DNA from: Paracoccus versutus
Lineage (GTDB): Bacteria > Pseudomonadota > Alphaproteobacteria > Rhodobacterales > Rhodobacteraceae
Direction: 5' to 3'
Assembly: GCF_000763885.1 (NCBI RefSeq)
Contig: NZ_JRKO01000003.1
Span: forward strand, 62,001 to 126,000
Length of the DNA: 64,000 nucleotides
A model generated the notes under the pieces. The model searched no databases. It saw nothing but the letters and a program-made list of their open reading frames with translations, and was not told the DNA's origin. Made by a program: the position numbers and the translations under genes. Shown here one piece after another: positions 11,919 to 20,808 of this stretch; the stretch's first letter is position 1; each line of letters opens with the position of its first letter.

Positions 11919-12596
11919 TCAGCCCAGCCGGGCAAAGGCTTCCAGCACGGCGCGCTCGGACTGGTTCAGGTAATCCTCCAGCATCCGGGCGGCGCCGGGC
12001 GGATCGCCGGCCTCCAGCCTGCCCAGGATCTCGGCATTGCGCGAAATATAGGGGCGGTGCAGCAGCTCGGGGCTGTCGAGCAGGCCGAAGGCCAGCCGCA
12101 GCTCGGCGATGATCTGGGTAAAGAACTGGATCAGCCGCGGGCTGTCGGTCAGCGCGACGATGGCGGCGTGGAACTCCATGTTGGCGCTGCCGACGCCGCG
12201 CCAGTCGGGGATGGCCTGCAGCGTCTCGGCCCGCTTCACCGCGGCGCGCATCCGGTCGACGGCGGCATGGCCGGGCCAGGCCTGGGCCAGGGCCGGCACC
12301 TCGATCAGCCGCCGCACCCGGTAGATGTCCAGGATCGAGGCCATCGAGGGCACCGCGACGAAGACCCCCCGGTTCGGTTCATGCCGCAGGATGCCCTCGC
12401 GCGTGAGCAGGCGGAACACCTCGCGCAGCGTATTGCGCGAGATGTCCAGCTCGGCCGCCAGCCGCGCCTCGGACAGGCGCTGGCCCGGTACCAGAGCGCC
12501 GCCGGTGACCTGGTCGCGCAGCCGGGCGGCGATGCCTTCGGCAAGGCTGGGGGCGGGTTCGCGGGCTTCGGCCATCGCGGCTGGTTCCTTTGTCAT
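11919..12596 (-). CDS. GntR-family (FCD subfamily) regulator of the 5-oxoproline locus
   Basis: About 225 aa. The winged helix (about residues 12-80) includes PGQRLSEARLAAELDISRNT and the C-terminal all-helical FCD domain has the metal-ligand histidine region (NMEFHAAIVAL). I place the start at the ATG at 12596; the ATG at 12575, behind AAGGA, is equally possible. It is transcribed divergently from the permease-pxp operon, and a perfect FadR-type operator lies between them. I infer local repression relieved by an operon metabolite. Confidence 0.87.
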   Translation of the reverse strand: MTKEPAAMAEAREPAPSLAEGIAARLRDQVTGGALVPGQRLSEARLAAELDISRNTLREVFRLLTREGILRHEPNRGVFVAVPSMASILDIYRVRRLIEVPALAQAWPGHAAVDRMRAAVKRAETLQAIPDWRGVGSANMEFHAAIVALTDSPRLIQFFTQIIAELRLAFGLLDSPELLHRPYISRNAEILGRLEAGDPPGAARMLEDYLNQSERAVLEAFARLG

Positions 12597-12768
12597 CGGG
12601 GCTGTCCCGTCCCTCGGGGGCCGCGCGATCTTGGCCGAGCGGCCGGGGGCAGGCAAGCCGCCCCGCGATGATTCGCCGGGTTTTTCGTCGCCCTGGCCTG
12701 ACCAGCACCGCCGCCTGACAGGGCAGGATGCCGCTGGACTGCCCATCATCCAGGCATATCATCCCTGC

Positions 12769-12892: not shown

Positions 12893-14128
12893 ATGGCCGA
12901 ATCCGTCACCTCCCCCTCTGCCGCCTCGGCCGCCGCGCGCGGCGGTTTCCTGGCGGCGATCTTCCTGATGGCGACCTCGGCCATCGGGCCGGGCTTCATC
13001 ACCCAGACCGCGACCTTCACGGCAAAGCTGGGCGCTGCCTTCGCCTTTGCCATCCTCGCCTCGATCGTGATCGACTTCGTGGTGCAGCTCAACATCTGGC
13101 GCATCACCGCGCTGACCCGGCGCAATGCCTCGGACACCGCGAACGCCGCCATTCCCGGCGCGGGCTATCTGCTGGCGGTGCTGGTGCTGGTCGGCGGGCT
13201 GGCCTTCAACATCGGCAACATCGCCGGGGCCGGGCTGGGCCTGAACGCCATGTTCGGGCTCGAGCCCAAGATCGGCGGCGCTCTGTCGGCGGCCCTGGCC
13301 ATCGGCATCTTCCTGTCGCGCCGGGCCGGGCTGCTGCTCGACCGTTCGCTGATCGGGCTGGGCTTGCTGATGATCGCCATGACGGTCATCGTCGCCCTGG
13401 TCTCTAACCCGCCGGTCGGCGACGCGATGCGGCAGATGGTGCTGCCCGAGATCGTCGATTTCGCCACCATCACCACCATCGTCGGCGGCACCGTCGGCGG
13501 CTATATCACCTATTCCGGCGCGCATCGCCTGCTCGACAAGGGACTGGTGGGCGAGCAGAACCTGGCCGCCGTCACCCGCGCCTCGCTGACCGGGATCGCG
13601 GTCACGGGGGTCATGCGCTTCATCCTGTTCCTGGCCATCCTGGGCGTCGTCGCCTCGGGGGTGACGCTGGACCTGTCGGGCCAGGCCGCGAACCCCGCCG
13701 CGCAGGCCTTTGCCGTGGTGCTGGGCGAATGGGGGATGCGCATCTTCGGCCTGATCTTCTGGGCCGCGGCCATCACCTCGGTCATCGGCGCGGCCTATAC
13801 CTCGGTCAGCTTCCTGGTTGCCTTTCGCACCATGGGCGACCGCGACCGCAACATCGCGACGGTGATCTTCATCGCCATCTCGCTGGCGGTCTATCTGTCG
13901 CTGGGCACGGCGCCGGCTGCCATCCTGGTCTTTGTCGGCGGCTTCAACGGGCTGATCCTGCCCATCGGCCTGACCATCTTTACCTATGTCGGCTTCGCGC
14001 GGGCCGACCTGATGGGCGGGCATGTCTATAACCGCCCGCTCTTGATCGCCAGTGCCGTGGTCTGCGCCTTGACCTGGTACATGGGCTTCAAGTCCATCGG
14101 CCCGATCTTTGCCTTCCTGGGCGCCTGA
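12893..14128 (+). CDS. NRAMP-like permease of the pxp operon (YcsG type)
   Basis: 411 aa with about 11 hydrophobic helices. It resembles the NRAMP superfamily, but the metal-binding residues are missing: helix 1 reads AIGPGFITQT where metal transporters have DPGN, and the helix 6 region reads YITYSGAHR without the MPH signature. Bacillus YcsG has the same gene context (next to ycsF/pxpA and ycsI). I infer uptake of 5-oxoproline or a related amino acid, not a metal. The ATG at 12893 follows AGGAG by seven bases; the longer frame from 12830 lacks support. Confidence 0.82.
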   Translation: MAESVTSPSAASAAARGGFLAAIFLMATSAIGPGFITQTATFTAKLGAAFAFAILASIVIDFVVQLNIWRITALTRRNASDTANAAIPGAGYLLAVLVLVGGLAFNIGNIAGAGLGLNAMFGLEPKIGGALSAALAIGIFLSRRAGLLLDRSLIGLGLLMIAMTVIVALVSNPPVGDAMRQMVLPEIVDFATITTIVGGTVGGYITYSGAHRLLDKGLVGEQNLAAVTRASLTGIAVTGVMRFILFLAILGVVASGVTLDLSGQAANPAAQAFAVVLGEWGMRIFGLIFWAAAITSVIGAAYTSVSFLVAFRTMGDRDRNIATVIFIAISLAVYLSLGTAPAAILVFVGGFNGLILPIGLTIFTYVGFARADLMGGHVYNRPLLIASAVVCALTWYMGFKSIGPIFAFLGA

Positions 14129-14167
14129 GCCATGATCGCGGCAGGCCTCCCGCGGGCCCGCCGCCCC

Positions 14168-14199
14168 AATTCCCGCCCTAATTCCCGCCCTAATTCCCG
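14168..14199 (+). repeat. 12 bp tandem repeat immediately before pxpA
   Basis: AATTCCCGCCCT occurs twice in tandem (14168-14179, 14180-14191) and a third partial copy (14192-14199) runs into the GGAGG ribosome site of pxpA. Confidence 0.85.
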
Positions 14200-14208
14200 G
14201 AGGAACAC

Positions 14209-14982
14209 ATGACCCGCAACATCGACCTGAACAGCGACCTGGGCGAGGGCTATGGCGCCTGGAAGATGGGCGACGACGCCACCATGCTGGGCATCGTCAG
14301 CTCGGCCAACGTCGCCTGCGGCTTTCACGCCGGCGACCCGCTGACCATCCTGGCCACCGTGCGCGAGGCGGCGGCGCGGGGCGTGGCGGTCGGGGCGCAT
14401 GTCTCCTATCCCGACCGGGTGGGCTTCGGCCGCCGGCCAATGGACGTGACCCATGCCGAACTTGTGGCGGACGTGATCTATCAGATCGGCGCGCTGCAGG
14501 GCATCTGCGCGAGCGCCGGCACCCGCGTCCACTATGTCAAGCCGCATGGCGCGCTTTACAACACCATCGCCGTGGACCCGAAACAGGGCGCGGCGGTGAT
14601 CGAGGGCATCCGTGCCGTCGATCCCTCGCTTGCCATGATGGGCCTGGCCGGGACGCAGATCCTGGCCCAGGCGGCCGAGGCCGGCCTGCCCATCATCGCC
14701 GAGGCCTTCGCCGACCGCGCCTATCGCCCCGACGGCCAGCTGGTCTCGCGGCGCGAGGCCGGGGCGGTGCTGCACGACCCCGAGGCCGTCGCCGCCCGCA
14801 TGCTGCGCCTGGCGACCGAGGGCAAGATCGAGGCGGCGGACGGCTCGACCCTGCACCTTCAGGCCGACAGCATCTGCGTGCATGGCGACAGCCCCGGCGC
14901 GGTGGCCATGGCCGCCCGCATCCGCGAGGCTCTGCTGGCGGGCGGCGTCGCCATCGCCCCGGCCACGGGGGGCGCGGCATGA
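14209..14982 (+). CDS. pxpA: 5-oxoprolinase subunit A (LamB/YcsF family)
   Basis: 257 aa, normal for PxpA. The family signature is at the N-terminus ([20 protein letters not shown]), followed by [12 protein letters not shown] and the conserved VKPHGALYN. PxpA acts with PxpB and PxpC in ATP-dependent hydrolysis of 5-oxo-L-proline to glutamate in the cytoplasm. The ribosome site GGAGG sits directly before it. The last four bases overlap the next start (ATGA), so the cluster is translationally coupled. Confidence 0.93.
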
Positions 14983-15770
14983 CCCTGTTGCCCGATCCGG
15001 CCAAGGCCCGCGCCGCCCGCCTTGCCTGCCGTCAGGAAGCCCCGCGTCCCACCGCGGGCATGGCGCCGGGGTTCACGCAATGCAACATGATCTCGCTGCC
15101 CAAGGACTGGGCCTGGGATTTCCTGCTTTACGCGCAGCGCAACCCCAAGCCCTGCCCGGTGCTGGACGTGACCGACCCCGGCAGTCCCCGCACCGCGCTT
15201 GCGCCCGATGCCGACCTGAGGACCGACATCCCGCTCTACCGCATCTGGCGCGACGGTGTGCTGGCTGAAGAAACCCCCGACGCCACCGCCGCCTGGGCCG
15301 AGCATCCCGACCTGGTGACATTCCTGATCGGCTGTTCCTTTACCTTCGAGACGCCCTTGCAGCAGGCGGGGATCGAGGTGCGCCACATCGCCCAAGGCTG
15401 CAATGTGCCGATGTTTTTGACCGACCGCGACTGCCGTCCGGCGGGGCGGCTGCATGGCAAGATGGTGGTGTCCATGCGGCCGATCCCGGCGGGGCGGGTG
15501 GCCGAGGCGGCGATGATCTCGGGCCGCACGCCGGCGGTCCACGGCGCCCCGGTGCATGTCGGCGCGCCCGAAGCCCTGGGCATCGCCGACCTCATGCGTC
15601 CCGATTTCGGCGACCCGGTGCAGATCCGGCCGGGCGAGGTGCCGGTGTTCTGGGCCTGCGGCGTGACCCCGCAAGCGGCGCTGATGGCGTCGAAGCCGCC
15701 CTTCGCCATCACCCATGCGCCGGGCTACATGTTCATCACCGACGTGCCCGACACGCATTGGCAGGTGTGA
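14979..15770 (+). CDS. DUF1445 (YcsI family) putative hydro-lyase or D-glutamate cyclase-like protein
   Basis: 263 aa, usual family length. It has the conserved [19 protein letters not shown] near residue 30, a SFTFETPL block and the C-terminal [14 protein letters not shown]. Members are annotated as hydro-lyases, and the mammalian relative DGLUCY interconverts D-glutamate and 5-oxo-D-proline. Being inside a 5-oxoproline operon fits a role in handling the D-isomer or a related cyclisation. It overlaps pxpA by four bases and ends two bases before pxpBC. Confidence 0.88.
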
Positions 15771-15772
15771 CC

Positions 15773-17326
15773 ATGCGCTTCCTGCCCATCGGACCCCGCA
15801 CCCTGCTGGCGGAACTGGACGACCTGGACCAGACGCTGGCGCTGTTCGACGCTTTGCTGGCCGATCCGGTGCCGGGCGTCGCCGAGATCGTCCCGGCCGC
15901 GCGCACGCTGATGATCCGCACCGCGCCCGGCGTCGCCGCCGACGGCCGGCTGGCTGGCGCGGTCCTGGCCCGCCAGCCCGCCCCAGGCACGCCGCCCAAC
16001 GCCCGCGCCAGCGAGACGGTCGAGCTGCCCGTGACCTATGACGGCGAGGATCTGGCCGATGTCGCGGCCCATATGGGCCTGACCGAGGCCGAGGTGATCG
16101 CCGCCCATCAGGAGACCACCTGGCAGGTGGCCTTTTGCGGCTTCGCGCCGGGCTTCGCCTATATGACCTGCGACGATCCGCGCTTCGAACTGCCGCGCCG
16201 CCCGGCCCCGCGCACCCGTATCCCGGCGGGTTCGGTGGCGCTGGCCGGGCGTTTCTGCGGCGTCTATCCGCAGGAGACCCCCGGCGGTTGGCAATTGATC
16301 GGCCGCACCGAGGTGCCGATGTGGGATCTGTCCCGCGACCCGCCGGCGCTGCTGCGTCCCGGCGTGCGCTGCCGTTTCGTGGCGCGCCGGGCCGAGGTTC
16401 GCCCCTCGGCCGCCATCCCGCAGCCCCAACCCCGGCAGGGCTTGCGCGTGCTGTCCACCGCCTTTCCCATCGTCTTTCAGGACGAGGGGCGGCCGGGGCA
16501 GGGCGGGCAGGGCGTCTCGGCCTCGGGCGCGCTCGACATGGGCGCGGCGCGGCGGGCCAATCGCGCCGTCGGCAACCCCTCGGACGCGCCGGTGCTGGAG
16601 ATCACGCTGGGCCCGGTCCGGCTGCGGGCCGACCAGCCGATGACCCTGGCCCTGACCGGCGCGTCGCCGGCCAGCGTCGCCGGCCATGCCGTCCCGCGCG
16701 GCGCGGCCTTTGCCGTGGATGCGGGCGACGAGATCGCCATCGACCCGCCGCAGGCCGGGATGCGCAGCTATCTGGCGCTGCGCGGCGGCTTCCGGGTCGC
16801 GCCGGTGCTGGGCTCGGCCGCCACCGATACGCTGGCCCATGTCGGGCCCGAGCAGGTTGCGGCGGGCGCGGTGCTGGCCCCCGCGAACCGTCCCGCCACC
16901 GCCGCGGCTGCGGCCGAACCCGAACCGGCGCTGCCGAAACCCGGCGATCTGGTGGAATTGCCGGTGACGCTGGGCCCCCGCACCGACTGGTTCACGCCCC
17001 AGATGGTCCAGCATTTCCTGACCCAGGAATGGCTGGTGACGCCGCAAAGCTCGCGCGTCGGCATCCGCCTGCAAGGCGATGCGGTGACGCGCGAGGACGC
17101 AACCGAACTGCCCTCGGAAGGGACCGAGACCGGCGCGATCCAGATCCCGCATTCCGGCCAGCCGGTGCTGTTTCTGGCCGACCATCCGCTGACCGGCGGC
17201 TATCCGGTCATCGCCACCCTGCGCCCCGAGGCGCTGGATCTGGCCGGGCAGATCCCGCCCGGCGCCCGCATCCGCTTTACCGCCAGCGCCGATTTCGCCC
17301 CCATCACGCCAGAGAGGCCCGCATGA
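15773..17326 (+). CDS. pxpBC: Fused 5-oxoprolinase subunits B and C
   Basis: 517 aa. Residues 1 to about 210 are PxpB (KipI-like) with [20 protein letters not shown] and [11 protein letters not shown]. Residues about 224 to the end are PxpC (KipA-like), with [21 protein letters not shown] and the late [11 protein letters not shown]-type block. In E. coli and Bacillus these are two proteins that form a complex; here a short Pro/Gln-rich linker joins them. With PxpA they make the ATP-dependent 5-oxoprolinase. The ATG at 15773 is two bases after the previous stop. Confidence 0.92.
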
Positions 17327-19086
17327 CCATTTTCGCCACCGGCCCCAGCCGCCCGATCCGCCGCCTGCTGATCGCCAACCGGGGCGAGATCGCCGTCCGC
17401 GTGATCCGCGCCTGCCGCGACGAGGCCATCGAAAGCGTCGCCGTCTATGCCGATGCCGATCGCGACGCGATCTTCGTGCGCATGGCCGACCAGGCCCATG
17501 CGCTGGGGGGCGACAAGCCCTCGGACACCTATCTGGATGCCGGCAAGATCATCGCCATCGCCCAGGCCGCCGGGGCCGATGCCATCCATCCGGGCTATGG
17601 TTTCCTGTCCGAACGCGCCGATTTCGCCCAGGCGGTGCAGGATGCCGGGCTGATCTGGATCGGCCCCGATCCCAAGGTGATCGAGGCGCTTGGCGACAAG
17701 ATCGAGGCCCGCCGCATCGCCGAGGCGGTGGGCGCGCCGCTGGTCGCCGGCACCCCCGGCCCGGTCGAAAGCGCCGCCGAGGCGCTGGCCTTCGCAAAGG
17801 AACACGGCCTGCCCATCGCCATCAAGGCCGCTTTCGGCGGCGGCGGCCGCGGCATGAAGGTCGCCTGGCGGCTGGAAGAGGTCGAGGAGCTGTTCGAATC
17901 CGCCACCCGCGAGGCGCTGACCGCCTTCGGCCGCGGCGAATGCTTCATCGAGCAGTTCCTGGATCGCCCGCGCCATGTCGAGGCGCAGGTGCTGGCCGAC
18001 AGGCACGGCACCGTCAAGGTGATCGGCACCCGCGACTGTTCCCTGCAGCGTCGCAACCAGAAGCTGGTCGAAGAGGCGCCGGCGCCGTTCCTGACCGACG
18101 AGCAGCGCGCCCGCATCCATGATTCCGCCCGCGCCATCTGCGCCCATGCCGGCTATTCGGGCGCGGGGACGGTGGAATACCTGCTCTCGGCCAATGGCAC
18201 GATTTCCTTTCTCGAGGTGAACACCCGGCTTCAGGTCGAGCATCCTGTGACCGAGGAAACCACCGGCATCGACCTGGTGCGCGGCATGATCCGCGTGGCG
18301 CAAGGCGCCAAGCTGGCCGACGAGACCGTGCCCGAGCCCCGCGGCCATGCCATCGAGTTTCGCATCAATGCCGAAGACCCCGCGCGCGGCTTCCTGCCCA
18401 CGCCCGGCCCGGTCGAGGTCTTCGATGCGCCCTCGGGGCCGGGCATCCGCATGGATAGCGGCGTCGCCCAAGGCTCGGTGGTGCCGGGCAGTTTCGATTC
18501 GCTGATGGCCAAGCTGATCGTGACCGGCGCCACCCGCGAGGAAGCCTTGCAGCGCGCCGACCGGGCGCTGCGCGAGTTTCGCATCGGGGGCGTGGCCTCG
18601 GTGCTGCCCTTTGCCCGTGCCGTGCTGGCCCAGTCGGATTTCCGCGCCGAGGACGGGGATTTCCGCGTCCATACCCGCTGGATCGAGACCGATTTCGCCG
18701 AACCGCTGGCCGAGGCGGTCGCCCCCCATGCCCGCGTCGCGCCCGCCGCGCAGGCGCCGCTGCTGCGCCTGGCCATTGAGATCGACGGCAAGCGACACGA
18801 GCTGGGCCTGCCCGCGAGCATGCTTGCGGCCTTGCCCTCGGGCGGCGCCCCCGCGGAGGCTGCGCCCGAGACGGACGAGGCGGTGCTGGCCGCCCCGGTC
18901 CCCGGCACGCTGACGCTGTGGCAGGCCGAGGACGGGGCCGAGGTCGAACAGGGCCAGGTTGTCGCCGTCATCGAGGCGATGAAGATGGAGACCCGGATCG
19001 AGGCGCACCGGGCGGGCCGGCTGACCCGCATCGCCGCGCAGGGCGAGGTGCTGGGCTTTGGCGCGGCCCTGGCGCGGATCGGCTGA
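17323..19086 (+). CDS. Biotin carboxylase fused to a C-terminal biotinyl domain (AccC-like)
   Basis: 587 aa, starting in a 4-base overlap with pxpBC behind AGAGAGG. The N-terminal 450 residues are a complete biotin carboxylase: [15 protein letters not shown] start, ATP-grasp with [10 protein letters not shown], and [18 protein letters not shown]. After a variable bridge, the C-terminal 70 residues form a biotinyl domain with [10 protein letters not shown]554 is the expected biotin site. A carboxyltransferase partner is not adjacent unless PxpC (related to the urea-carboxylase transferase) serves. It probably forms a substrate-specific carboxylase for the pxp locus rather than housekeeping acetyl-CoA carboxylase. 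Confidence 0.88.
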
Positions 19087-19165: not shown

Positions 19166-20200
19166 ATGAGCCTGCTGAACCGCCGCATCCTGACCTTTGC
19201 GCTGGCCGCCCTGGGCGGCGCGGCCTTCCTGCTGTTGCACCTGCCGCTGCCCATGCTGCTGGGGCCGATGCTGGCCTGCCTGGTCGCGGCGCTGGCCGGC
19301 GCGCCTTTGGCCGGGGCCGGGCAGTTCGGCATCTTCATGCGCACCATCCTGGGGGTGGCGGTCGGCGCCTCGATCACGCCCGGCGTGCTGGCGGAACTGC
19401 CGGACGTGGCGGCCTCGCTGCTGTTCGTGCCGGGCTTCATCGGGGTGATCGCGCTGGTCGGCTATCCCTTGTTCCGCCGCGCCTTCGGCTTCGACCACGC
19501 CACGGCCTGGTATGGCGCCATGCCCGGCGGCTTGCAGGACATGCTGGTCTTTGGCGAAGAGGCGGGCGGCGATGTCCGCGCGCTGTCGCTGATCCATGCG
19601 ACGCGGGTGCTGGTGATCGTCACCGTCGCGCCGCTGATCCTGACCGGCTGGTGGGGCGTGGACCTGTCGCAGCCGCCCGGCGCGCCGATGCGCACGACCG
19701 GCGCGGCCGAGATCGCGCTGATGGCCGCCGCCGGGCTGGTCGGCTGGAAGGGGGCCGAGCGGCTGGGCATCTTCGGCGCCTCGATCCTGGGGCCGATGGT
19801 GCTGACGGCGGCGCTGTCGCTGTCGGGCCTGATCACCCAGCGCCCGCCGGCCGAGATGATCCAGGCCGCGCAATTCTTCATCGGCATCGCCGTCGGGGTG
19901 AAATATGCCGGCATCACCCTGCGCGAGCTGCGCCTGCATGTCACGGCCGGGCTGGTCTATGCGCTGCTCTTGGCGGGGATCAGCCTGGTCTTCATCGAGG
20001 GGATCGTGCATCTGGGGCTGGCGCCGGGGCTCGACGCCTTCCTGGCCTTCCTGCCGGGCGGGCAGGCCGAGATGGTGGTGATCGCGCTGATCGCCGGGGC
20101 GGACATGGCCTATGTCGTCAGCCACCACTTGCTGCGCATGGTCATCGTGATCGTGCTGGGGCCGGTGGTGGGCAAGGTGCTGGGCCGCCGCCGGGGCTGA
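19166..20200 (+). CDS. AbrB-family inner membrane protein
   Basis: 344 aa with about ten hydrophobic segments, arranged as two similar halves (each holding the LLGPML/ILGPMV pattern), which is typical of the duplicated AbrB membrane family (PF05145, once called ammonia monooxygenase). MPGGLQDMLVFGEEAGGD and the related FLPGGQAEMVVIAL in the second half are signature blocks. Transport function is presumed but the substrate is unknown. It starts 79 bases after the pxp operon on the same strand, so cotranscription is possible. Confidence 0.85.
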   Translation: MSLLNRRILTFALAALGGAAFLLLHLPLPMLLGPMLACLVAALAGAPLAGAGQFGIFMRTILGVAVGASITPGVLAELPDVAASLLFVPGFIGVIALVGYPLFRRAFGFDHATAWYGAMPGGLQDMLVFGEEAGGDVRALSLIHATRVLVIVTVAPLILTGWWGVDLSQPPGAPMRTTGAAEIALMAAAGLVGWKGAERLGIFGASILGPMVLTAALSLSGLITQRPPAEMIQAAQFFIGIAVGVKYAGITLRELRLHVTAGLVYALLLAGISLVFIEGIVHLGLAPGLDAFLAFLPGGQAEMVVIALIAGADMAYVVSHHLLRMVIVIVLGPVVGKVLGRRRG

Positions 20201-20244
20201 GGCAACCGCGGCCCCGAGGGGCCGGAACCAAGGGGAGGAACCGC

Positions 20245-20808
20245 ATGAGCCATCGCATCCTGAAAGCCGCCGACCATCGCCGCATGCCGTGGAAGAACGG
20301 CCGCGGCGAGACGGTCGAGATCGCCGTCCACCCCGCGGGCGCGGGCCTTGCCGATTTCGGCTGGCGCGTCAGCATGGCCGGCGTGACCGAGGACGGCGAT
20401 TTCTCGATCTTCCCGCAGATCGACCGCACGCTGGCGGTGCTGACCGGCGCGGGGATCGCGTTGCAGGTGCAGGGGCAGCCCGCCCAGCGGCTGACGCCGG
20501 AGAGCGCGCCGCTGGCATTCCCGGCGGATGTGCCGACCTCGGCGCGGCTGCTGGCGGGGCCGATCACCGACCTGAACGTGATGACCCGGCGCGGGGCCTT
20601 CACCCACCGGCTGGCGCGGCTGACCCAGGCGGCCGAGGGCGCGCCGGGCTGGCGGCTGTTGCTGGCGACCGCGCCGGTGGTGCTGGATTTCGCCGGCGGG
20701 ACCGTGGCGCTGGACCAGCTTGATGCGCTGTTCTGCGAAGGGCCGGAGGCCGCGCTGCCGGTCGGTCCCGCGCCGGATGTCTGGCTGATCGAGATCGCCC
20801 GCGCCTAG
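20245..20808 (+). CDS. HutD/Ves family cupin-like protein
   Basis: 187 aa. The beginning (RMPWKNGRGETVEIAVHPAG) and FGWRVSMAGVTEDGDFSIFP are the hallmarks of the HutD/Ves family, a small bicupin often encoded with histidine-utilisation genes. No hut genes are near here. HutD is thought to limit histidine or N-formimino-glutamate catabolism, but no reaction has been shown. A strong AGGGGAGGA site precedes it. Its stop overlaps that of the convergent antiporter gene. Confidence 0.87.
   Translation: MSHRILKAADHRRMPWKNGRGETVEIAVHPAGAGLADFGWRVSMAGVTEDGDFSIFPQIDRTLAVLTGAGIALQVQGQPAQRLTPESAPLAFPADVPTSARLLAGPITDLNVMTRRGAFTHRLARLTQAAEGAPGWRLLLATAPVVLDFAGGTVALDQLDALFCEGPEAALPVGPAPDVWLIEIARA

Follow-up and report, generated by a model that had tools for sequence, protein, structure and literature searches.

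Predicted biotin-dependent lactamase, most likely a 5-oxoprolinase, encoded by a pxp operon of Paracoccus versutus

We analyzed a 64,000-nucleotide stretch of the Paracoccus versutus genome (assembly GCF_000763885.1, contig NZ_JRKO01000003.1, positions 62,001 to 126,000 of the forward strand; hereafter the window), in which five closely packed plus-strand genes (12893-19086) encode an NRAMP-family transporter, PxpA, a PF07286 protein, a PxpB-PxpC fusion (PxpBC) and a fusion of a biotin carboxylase (BC) with a biotinyl domain (BCCP). 5-Oxoproline is a damaged, ring-closed form of glutamate, and the name PxpABC was reportedly introduced by Niehaus in 2017. Our proposal is that these genes specify a lactamase that depends on biotin and is driven by ATP, most probably a 5-oxoprolinase. 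The first-pass annotation of this DNA had raised the idea that a biotin-dependent step may exist here. The assignment of such a step to the operon is now well supported, because the gene order couples BC to PxpBC, the linkage recurs in separate clades, BC-BCCP is related to AccA3, PDB entry 9yx5 contains mycobacterial PxpBC homologues together with AccA3, and no other carboxyltransferase partner is evident in the genome. We consider it very probable that PxpBC and BC-BCCP act together and rather likely that their joint reaction is the biotin-dependent opening of 5-oxoproline, the substrate that we infer.

Results

A biotin carboxylase fusion is coupled to the PxpB-PxpC fusion

PxpB and PxpC correspond to KipI and KipA, respectively, and a tilde is used below to join domains in one frame. 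The PxpB-PxpC fusion, the carboxylase-biotinyl fusion and the overlap that couples them had all been described in the first-pass annotation and were confirmed, together with the PF07286 gene, which it had not named. The stop codon of PxpBC and the start codon of BC have ATGA in common (17323-17326), an overlap of 4 bases. In an alignment of five fusions, the relatives start near the (M)RFLP segment, and the start of the window fusion is therefore probably ATG 15773; GTG 15767 and TTG 15758 are upstream in-frame alternatives.

The BC domain was complete, with Biotin_carb_N, CPSase_L_D2 and Biotin_carb_C above cut-off. Nine positions that we take to be catalytic (K116, K159, H209, K238, E276, E288, N290, R292 and R338 in the numbering and roles of Escherichia coli AccC, placed by motif) were present in the window protein and invariant in 86 of 86 fused BC-BCCP proteins. 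These comprised the window protein, those of 78 of the 80 near relatives described below and seven others; the BC of the contig-cut locus L079 was not counted as fused. The best PDB match of BC-BCCP, a protein of roughly 60 kDa, was AccA3 (689.4 bits over residues 8-585), which 9yx5 and other entries contain.

To describe the surroundings in related genomes, we used the best 80 of 554 confirmed relatives of the fusion, a set that is near by construction and whose loci were annotated with profiles built in this analysis. Hosts included Paracoccus, Rhizobium, Agrobacterium, Pseudomonas, Photorhabdus, Comamonas, Bartonella, Cryobacterium and Agrococcus. The closest named fusion among the matches listed was that of Paracoccus litorisediminis (80% identity; records very close to the window may be missing). 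KipI and KipA were in one frame in all 80, and PxpA (79/80), BC (79/80) and BCCP (78/80) lay within 5 kb of the fusion. The exceptions were L130 (no PxpA), L091 (no BC) and L079 (cut by the contig end, no BCCP seen). According to a simple start-codon rule, the PxpBC stop and the BC start overlapped in 43 of 79 loci, lay within 30 bases of each other in 19 and were farther apart in 17. In the source genome (5.5 Mb, 187 contigs), the BC N-terminal domain is complete in six cases and truncated at a contig end in two more, and therefore a BC would lie within 5 kb of a given gene by random placement with an estimated chance of about 1%.

No other carboxyltransferase partner is evident in the source genome

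No AccD-type carboxyltransferase was detected in the operon. Matches to Carboxyl_trans (PF01039) were located on contigs C29, C63, C50 and C10, with none on the window contig, C3; we therefore discarded the idea that the BC serves an acyl-CoA carboxylase by way of a nearby AccD. On C29 and C63, BC genes were accompanied by Carboxyl_trans genes and biotinyl domains within a few kb. The BC on C65 was AccC (708 bits; cut-off 626.5) with a biotinyl domain beside it, and its AccA and AccD are likely represented by the partial matches to PF01039 on C10 and C50. The BC on C18, which is cut short, scored best as pyruvate carboxylase. The BCs left over were those of the window and of C44, both beside KipI/KipA and neither with a Carboxyl_trans partner. 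Thus, no other carboxyltransferase partner for the window BC was evident in the genome, and both of its KipA genes are linked to BC.

The second of these loci (L005; G000:C44:4000-18000) is divergent, with the order BCCP-BC-KipI-KipA-PxpA and with KipI residues altered around the active-site columns. It may act on a different lactam. The source genome also has six full-length matches of the hydantoinase-B type, which, like the second locus, could hide the effect of losing the window BC. In the Pseudomonas oleovorans genome, by comparison, a single KipA match was seen.

Linkage of BC to KipA recurs in two phyla

To avoid the bias of a near-relative set, we surveyed KipA (PF02626) matches in 150 evenly drawn genomes of Pseudomonadota and 119 of Actinomycetota. 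There were 69 matches in 50 of the pseudomonadotal genomes, and 27 of the actinobacterial genomes had matches. Of the former matches, 21 were set aside as urea carboxylase on the basis of open frames longer than 1000 amino acids (domain order was checked in 14). We read the surroundings of the other 48, which include the source genome's own two, of 28 actinobacterial matches, and of 14 of the 21 pseudomonadotal and two actinobacterial urea carboxylases.

BC lay within 5 kb of KipA at 15 of 48 pseudomonadotal loci (13 of 46 without the source genome's two) and 8 of 24 actinobacterial loci. The 24 exclude L154, the locus of the draw's centre genome, and L164, L171, L175 and L179; L061, cut by a contig end, was counted as BC-free among the 48, and L169 as BC-free among the 24. 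In total, 23 of 72 loci were BC-linked, in several separate clades, and PxpA stood alongside in all 23. Gene orders were PxpA-KipI~KipA-BC~BCCP (the window type), PxpA-BCCP-BC-KipI-KipA, BCCP-BC-KipI-KipA-PxpA and two further actinobacterial arrangements.

Loci L164, L171, L175 and L179 carry an actinobacterial KipA~KipI with the domain order of urea carboxylase, and no BC or BCCP was found in the 15-kb stretch; these may be urea carboxylases that borrow AccA3. In a further group of nine rows (L017, L018, L020, L023, L163, L166, L168, L169 and L173), the loci are PxpA-linked, with separate BCCP and, except for L169, BC genes. Their KipI carries the urea-carboxylase Lys and GGYQ and is sister to urea carboxylase on the tree. 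The group is a good candidate for lactam N-carboxylation.

Trees suggest capture of an AccA3-type gene

In the KipI+KipA tree (109 rows; 34 of 106 inner branches open), the window-type fusions formed one clade (SH-aLRT, the Shimodaira-Hasegawa-like approximate likelihood ratio test, 99) inside a larger clade (99). The 12 other rows of the larger clade were all actinobacterial, nine beside PxpA and three not, with no BC in the stretch read; the step that places L170 and L172 nearest to the window type had a support of 84. Urea carboxylases were sister to the PxpA-BCCP-BC group (99), and three more BC-linked lineages lay elsewhere. The state "BC nearby" required 6 changes on this tree with L169 and L061 left aside, 7 when these two were scored as BC-free, and 10 when L164, L171, L175 and L179 were also so scored.

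In the BC tree (86 rows), a branch with an SH-aLRT of 97 placed the window-type BCs on one side together with AccA3-like BC~BCCP genes of four actinobacterial genomes, all four of which have the BCCP in the same frame as the BC. Taken together, the two trees suggest the order of events: PxpBC would have worked with AccA3 in Actinobacteria, and a copy of AccA3 would then have been captured into the operon.

The PxpB-PxpC fusion has a carboxyltransferase fold

Pfam detected only carboxyltransferase domains in PxpBC. The fusion scored below the NCBIfam equivalog cut-offs for PxpB (127.2 against 145.55 bits) and PxpC (178.6 against 500 bits), both of which were exceeded by the E. coli proteins (355.6 and 591.8 bits, respectively). 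An AlphaFold2 model of the fusion built with 36 sequences had a mean pLDDT (predicted local distance difference test) of 92.8, and its best structural matches were MSMEG_0435-0436, TTHA0988, E. coli YbgJK and the urea carboxylase of Kluyveromyces lactis. TTHA0988 was superposed over 465-482 residues (Z 38.6-38.8). The C-terminal half (276-293 residues) matched MSMEG_0435 (Z 39.3), E. coli YbgK (Z 34.6) and the carboxyltransferase of urea carboxylase (5i8i; Z 34.2, 293 residues, 1.8 A). By sequence and fold, a CT_A_B/CT_C_D protein adjoins the BC as its candidate carboxyltransferase partner; the activity is predicted, with Arg at the site of the urea carboxylase Lys.

Mycobacterial homologues are found with AccA3

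PDB entry 9yx5, entitled "Structure of the long chain acyl-CoA carboxylase complex from Mycobacterium smegmatis with MSMEG_0435-MSMEG_0436 bound", holds MSMEG_0435 (KipA), MSMEG_0436 (KipI) and AccA3 according to its title and chain list. MSMEG_0435/0436 aligned with the window fusion and had Arg144, D354, R405, W408 and the LPSEG segment in common with it. Judged by titles, chain lists and alignments (PDB 3mml and 9yx5), both systems have PxpBC homologues and a BC-BCCP of AccA3 type. They differ in that the mycobacterial proteins are separate subunits on a long-chain acyl-CoA carboxylase complex, whereas the window has a fused PxpBC and an AccA3-like gene of its own. The MSMEG_0435/0436 genes are listed as up under nitrogen limitation in a passage of PMC4617892.

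Neighboring genes

The features of the locus are given in Table 1. PxpA passed the cut-off of the subfamily model (226 bits) and did not reach three stricter PxpA equivalog models. Its gene overlaps the PF07286 gene by 4 bases. The PF07286 gene places a D-glutamate-cyclase-family protein within a 5-oxoprolinase operon. If both enzymes act on the D-form, the result would be a futile cycle, which puts the substrate stereochemistry or the role of the PF07286 protein here in question.

Within 5 kb of the fusion, an NRAMP gene was present in at least 38 and a PF07286 gene in at least 39 of the best 80 loci; both counts are lower bounds, and the PF07286 profile was built from few sequences. A GntR-profile match lay within 7 kb in 67 of the 80. 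The first helix of the window NRAMP homologue is SAIGPGFITQTATF, with GPGF in place of DPGN; DPGN, which we take to be the metal-binding motif of NRAMP transporters, is absent from this protein. GPGF also replaces DPGN in the pxp-linked NRAMP proteins of L029, L034, L045, L115 and L154. In search of a hint to the substrate, we scanned nine proteins at five loci of relatives that lack NRAMP. A DUF979 protein is encoded directly upstream of PxpA in L118 (5543-6532) and L106 (5997-7076), both without NRAMP, and is perhaps an alternative transporter; neither had an NCBIfam match. Downstream of the operon, HutD is encoded next after the AbrB-family gene (19166-20808 for the two). An abrB gene is also close to pxpBCA of E. 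coli K-12 (L156:6724-7770), with nei in between.

Table 1. Features of the pxp locus in the window (window coordinates)
Feature	Position	Strand	Evidence or remark
GntR/FCD-family regulator, PxpR-like position	11919..12749	-	Divergent from the operon; Pfam GntR and FCD
NRAMP-family transporter, PxpT/YcsG-like	12893..14128	+	Pfam Nramp 73.7 bits
PxpA (LamB/YcsF family), likely hydrolytic subunit	14209..14982	+	NF003814 374.3 bits; PF03746 346.6 bits
PF07286 protein ("D-glutamate cyclase"/"putative hydro-lyase")	14979..15770	+	224.6 bits
PxpB(KipI)-PxpC(KipA) fusion, predicted carboxyltransferase	15773..17326	+	CT_C_D 217.4 and CT_A_B 269.1 bits, one frame
Arg144 codon (P0002 numbering)	16196..16198	+	Column of KlUA Lys1605
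BC-BCCP fusion, AccA3-like	17323..19086	+	Biotin_carb_N 148.9, CPSase_L_D2 255.1, Biotin_carb_C 118.9, Biotin_lipoyl 50.5 bits
Lys554 codon, predicted biotin-accepting (EAMKMET)	18982..18984	+	Aligned; invariant in 86/86 fused BC-BCCP, window included
AbrB-family membrane protein, possibly in operon	19166..20200	+	Pfam AbrB 264.2 bits; downstream

Discussion

Proposed reaction and known systems

We propose that biotin on the C-terminal BCCP would be carboxylated by the BC domain of the same protein at the expense of ATP and bicarbonate. The PxpB-PxpC fusion, as carboxyltransferase, would then pass the carboxyl group on to 5-oxoproline at its lactam, much as urea is carboxylated by urea carboxylase. 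The activated lactam would be hydrolyzed by PxpA, the carboxy group leaving as CO2 and the product being glutamate. The acceptor is presumably 5-oxoproline, the carboxylation would be on N (or O), and its product would be passed to PxpA.

The window shares homologues of PxpA, PxpB and PxpC with the PxpABC systems of E. coli (pxpBCA) and Corynebacterium glutamicum (pxpTABC), and shares with the latter operon a transporter of the NRAMP family and a GntR gene in divergent orientation (described in PMC13274462). It differs from them in that PxpB and PxpC are fused and below the curated cut-offs, and in the coupled BC-BCCP gene; the 10-kb surroundings of the pxp locus of E. coli K-12 have no such gene annotated. 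A six-gene operon of Staphylococcus aureus (pxpB, pxpC, pxpA, accB, accC) also unites 5-oxoprolinase and BC/BCCP genes, so that the linkage itself is already in print; there the genes are separate, and the authors place accBC under fatty acid synthesis in the relevant passage (PMC11315280). Urea carboxylase (K. lactis; PDB 3va7 and 5i8i) likewise has BC, BCCP and the same carboxyltransferase fold. It is one polypeptide with Lys1605 as likely base and allophanate hydrolase as partner, whereas the window has two polypeptides, Arg at this site and PxpA as partner. Bicarbonate activation of a lactam has a precedent, by analogy, in the caprolactamase CapAB of Pseudomonas jessenii, which is described as hydrolyzing its lactam in an ATP-dependent manner with a need for bicarbonate (PMC8453981). 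CapAB is called not similar to PxpABC there, and the passages concerned do not mention a biotin part.

Observations that weigh against a biotin-dependent reaction

Several observations count against the proposed reaction. The first is the residue at the carboxyltransferase active site. A passage of PMC5770610 gives Lys1605 of the K. lactis enzyme KlUA (residue 1012 of 3va7, within TKYNPSR) as the likely general base of urea carboxylase. This column held Lys in 95% of 20 urea-carboxylase rows and in 9 of 9 rows of the sister group, but Arg in every row of the remaining seven groups in the table, whether linked to BC or not (six tree rows are in no group), and Arg144 was invariant in 36 aligned fusion sequences. 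Because the urea carboxylase Lys is Arg in these enzymes, they may use another base or another reaction, and the chemistry may differ; of the sequence results, it is this one that argues most against the enzyme being simply a copy of urea carboxylase. Lys together with GGYQ was common to urea carboxylase and its sister group only, and Lys is therefore not predicted by BC linkage. Further, when the columns conserved among window-type proteins were tabulated, no residues stood out that separate BC-linked from BC-free KipI/KipA. The first-pass annotation had likened PxpC to the carboxyltransferase of urea carboxylase. The kinship holds, but it is PxpB and PxpC together, and not PxpC alone, that match the carboxyltransferase domain, and the Lys is replaced.

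The second concerns linkage. Among the 49 KipA loci without BC in the two draws, 40 have PxpA, and many PxpABC loci thus lack a local BC. L169 has BCCP but no BC despite 6 kb of sequence, where its four sisters have BC. L091 has a window-type fusion with no BC nearby, and the BC genes of its metagenome-assembled genome are all more distant (49% identity at best); this locus is either incomplete or dependent on housekeeping AccC/AccB. In the source genome, the cut BC fragments on C56 and C21 could be assigned no partner. The third concerns biochemistry. PxpB and PxpC co-purified are said to hydrolyze ATP (a passage of PMC8453981), which is unexpected for a pure carboxyltransferase unless a carboxylase came along, and in PMC13274462 the pair is assumed, where it is discussed, to phosphorylate 5-oxoproline. 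From 9yx5 the evidence is confined to its title and its list of chains and does not extend to the interface, and no activity data for such an operon were found in the literature searched.

Alternative explanations

A reading that we regard as unlikely keeps the biotin enzyme and changes the acceptor to another lactam, amide or imide hydrolyzed by PxpA, for example 5-oxo-D-proline from the PF07286 protein. The presence of this Pfam D-glutamate cyclase inside the operon and near at least 39 of the best 80 of 554 related loci agrees with it, as do the scores of the fusion under the PxpB and PxpC equivalog cut-offs that the E. coli proteins exceed, and the second BC-linked PxpA-KipIA locus in the genome, since the two may differ in substrate. 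However, the transporter family, the GntR position and PxpA match the C. glutamicum operon, for which PMC13274462 describes genetic evidence that it serves 5-oxo-L-proline and a GntR repressor, PxpR, that binds 5-oxoproline; according to the same source, Bacillus subtilis also requires the transporter homologue YcsG.

It is less likely again that BC-BCCP is an accessory that feeds an acyl-CoA carboxyltransferase elsewhere or only tunes acetyl-CoA carboxylase, with PxpBC using ATP directly, as the scheme assumed for PxpABC has it. BC-BCCP is AccA3-like and AccA3 is stated to serve acyl-CoA carboxylases (PMC11001197), the S. aureus accBC genes are assigned to fatty acid synthesis (PMC11315280, in the passage cited above), and the ATP hydrolysis reported for PxpBC in PMC8453981 would fit. 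Against this, the window contig has no Carboxyl_trans match and both strong ones are next to other BC genes, the linkage recurs in different gene orders with PxpA always present, and a PxpBC homologue is bound to the AccA3-containing complex in 9yx5. A split urea carboxylase supplying nitrogen from urea has a negligible probability and was rejected: although BC, BCCP and CT_A_B/CT_C_D are urea carboxylase domains, TIGR02712 scored 506.3 and 142.8 bits in two proteins against a cut-off of 1303.85, the catalytic Lys is missing, the tree places the clade apart from urea carboxylase, and PxpA is adjacent.

Implications for PxpABC

The first-pass annotation assumed that the known enzyme lacks a biotin-dependent step, and this was not borne out as an established fact. 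Since the structure of the M. smegmatis homologue was solved with an AccA3-containing complex as its partner, and since no BC was seen in the stretch read for the closest actinobacterial relatives sampled, BC-free PxpABC may use biotin in trans. We tentatively extend the proposed biotin-dependent reaction to PxpABC at large, an extension that is doubtful at present: PxpBC would be a carboxyltransferase throughout, ATP would be spent at BC, and bicarbonate would be a recycled lactam activator. E. coli and C. glutamicum, without a local BC, would borrow the BC/BCCP of housekeeping acetyl-CoA carboxylase, as is hinted by the binding of mycobacterial PxpBC to the AccA3 complex, and the window operon would represent a copy of a housekeeping subunit that was captured and dedicated. 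We found no printed claim of a biotin-dependent 5-oxoprolinase in a search that missed most subscription journals and all preprints, and a part of a biotin enzyme in the ring opening is not in the pathway accounts found.

Lombard and Moreira (PMC3199775) left open, in the passage concerned, whether stand-alone carboxyltransferase genes of the urea carboxylase type pair with other BCs or indicate another reaction. For one large clade at least, what is seen in the window and among its relatives speaks for pairing with another BC and names that BC. If the proposal is true, genes beside pxp that are annotated as acetyl-CoA carboxylase subunits would be misassigned, and the widespread recycling of a common metabolic damage product would be a cycle of carboxylation and hydrolysis, not phosphorylation.

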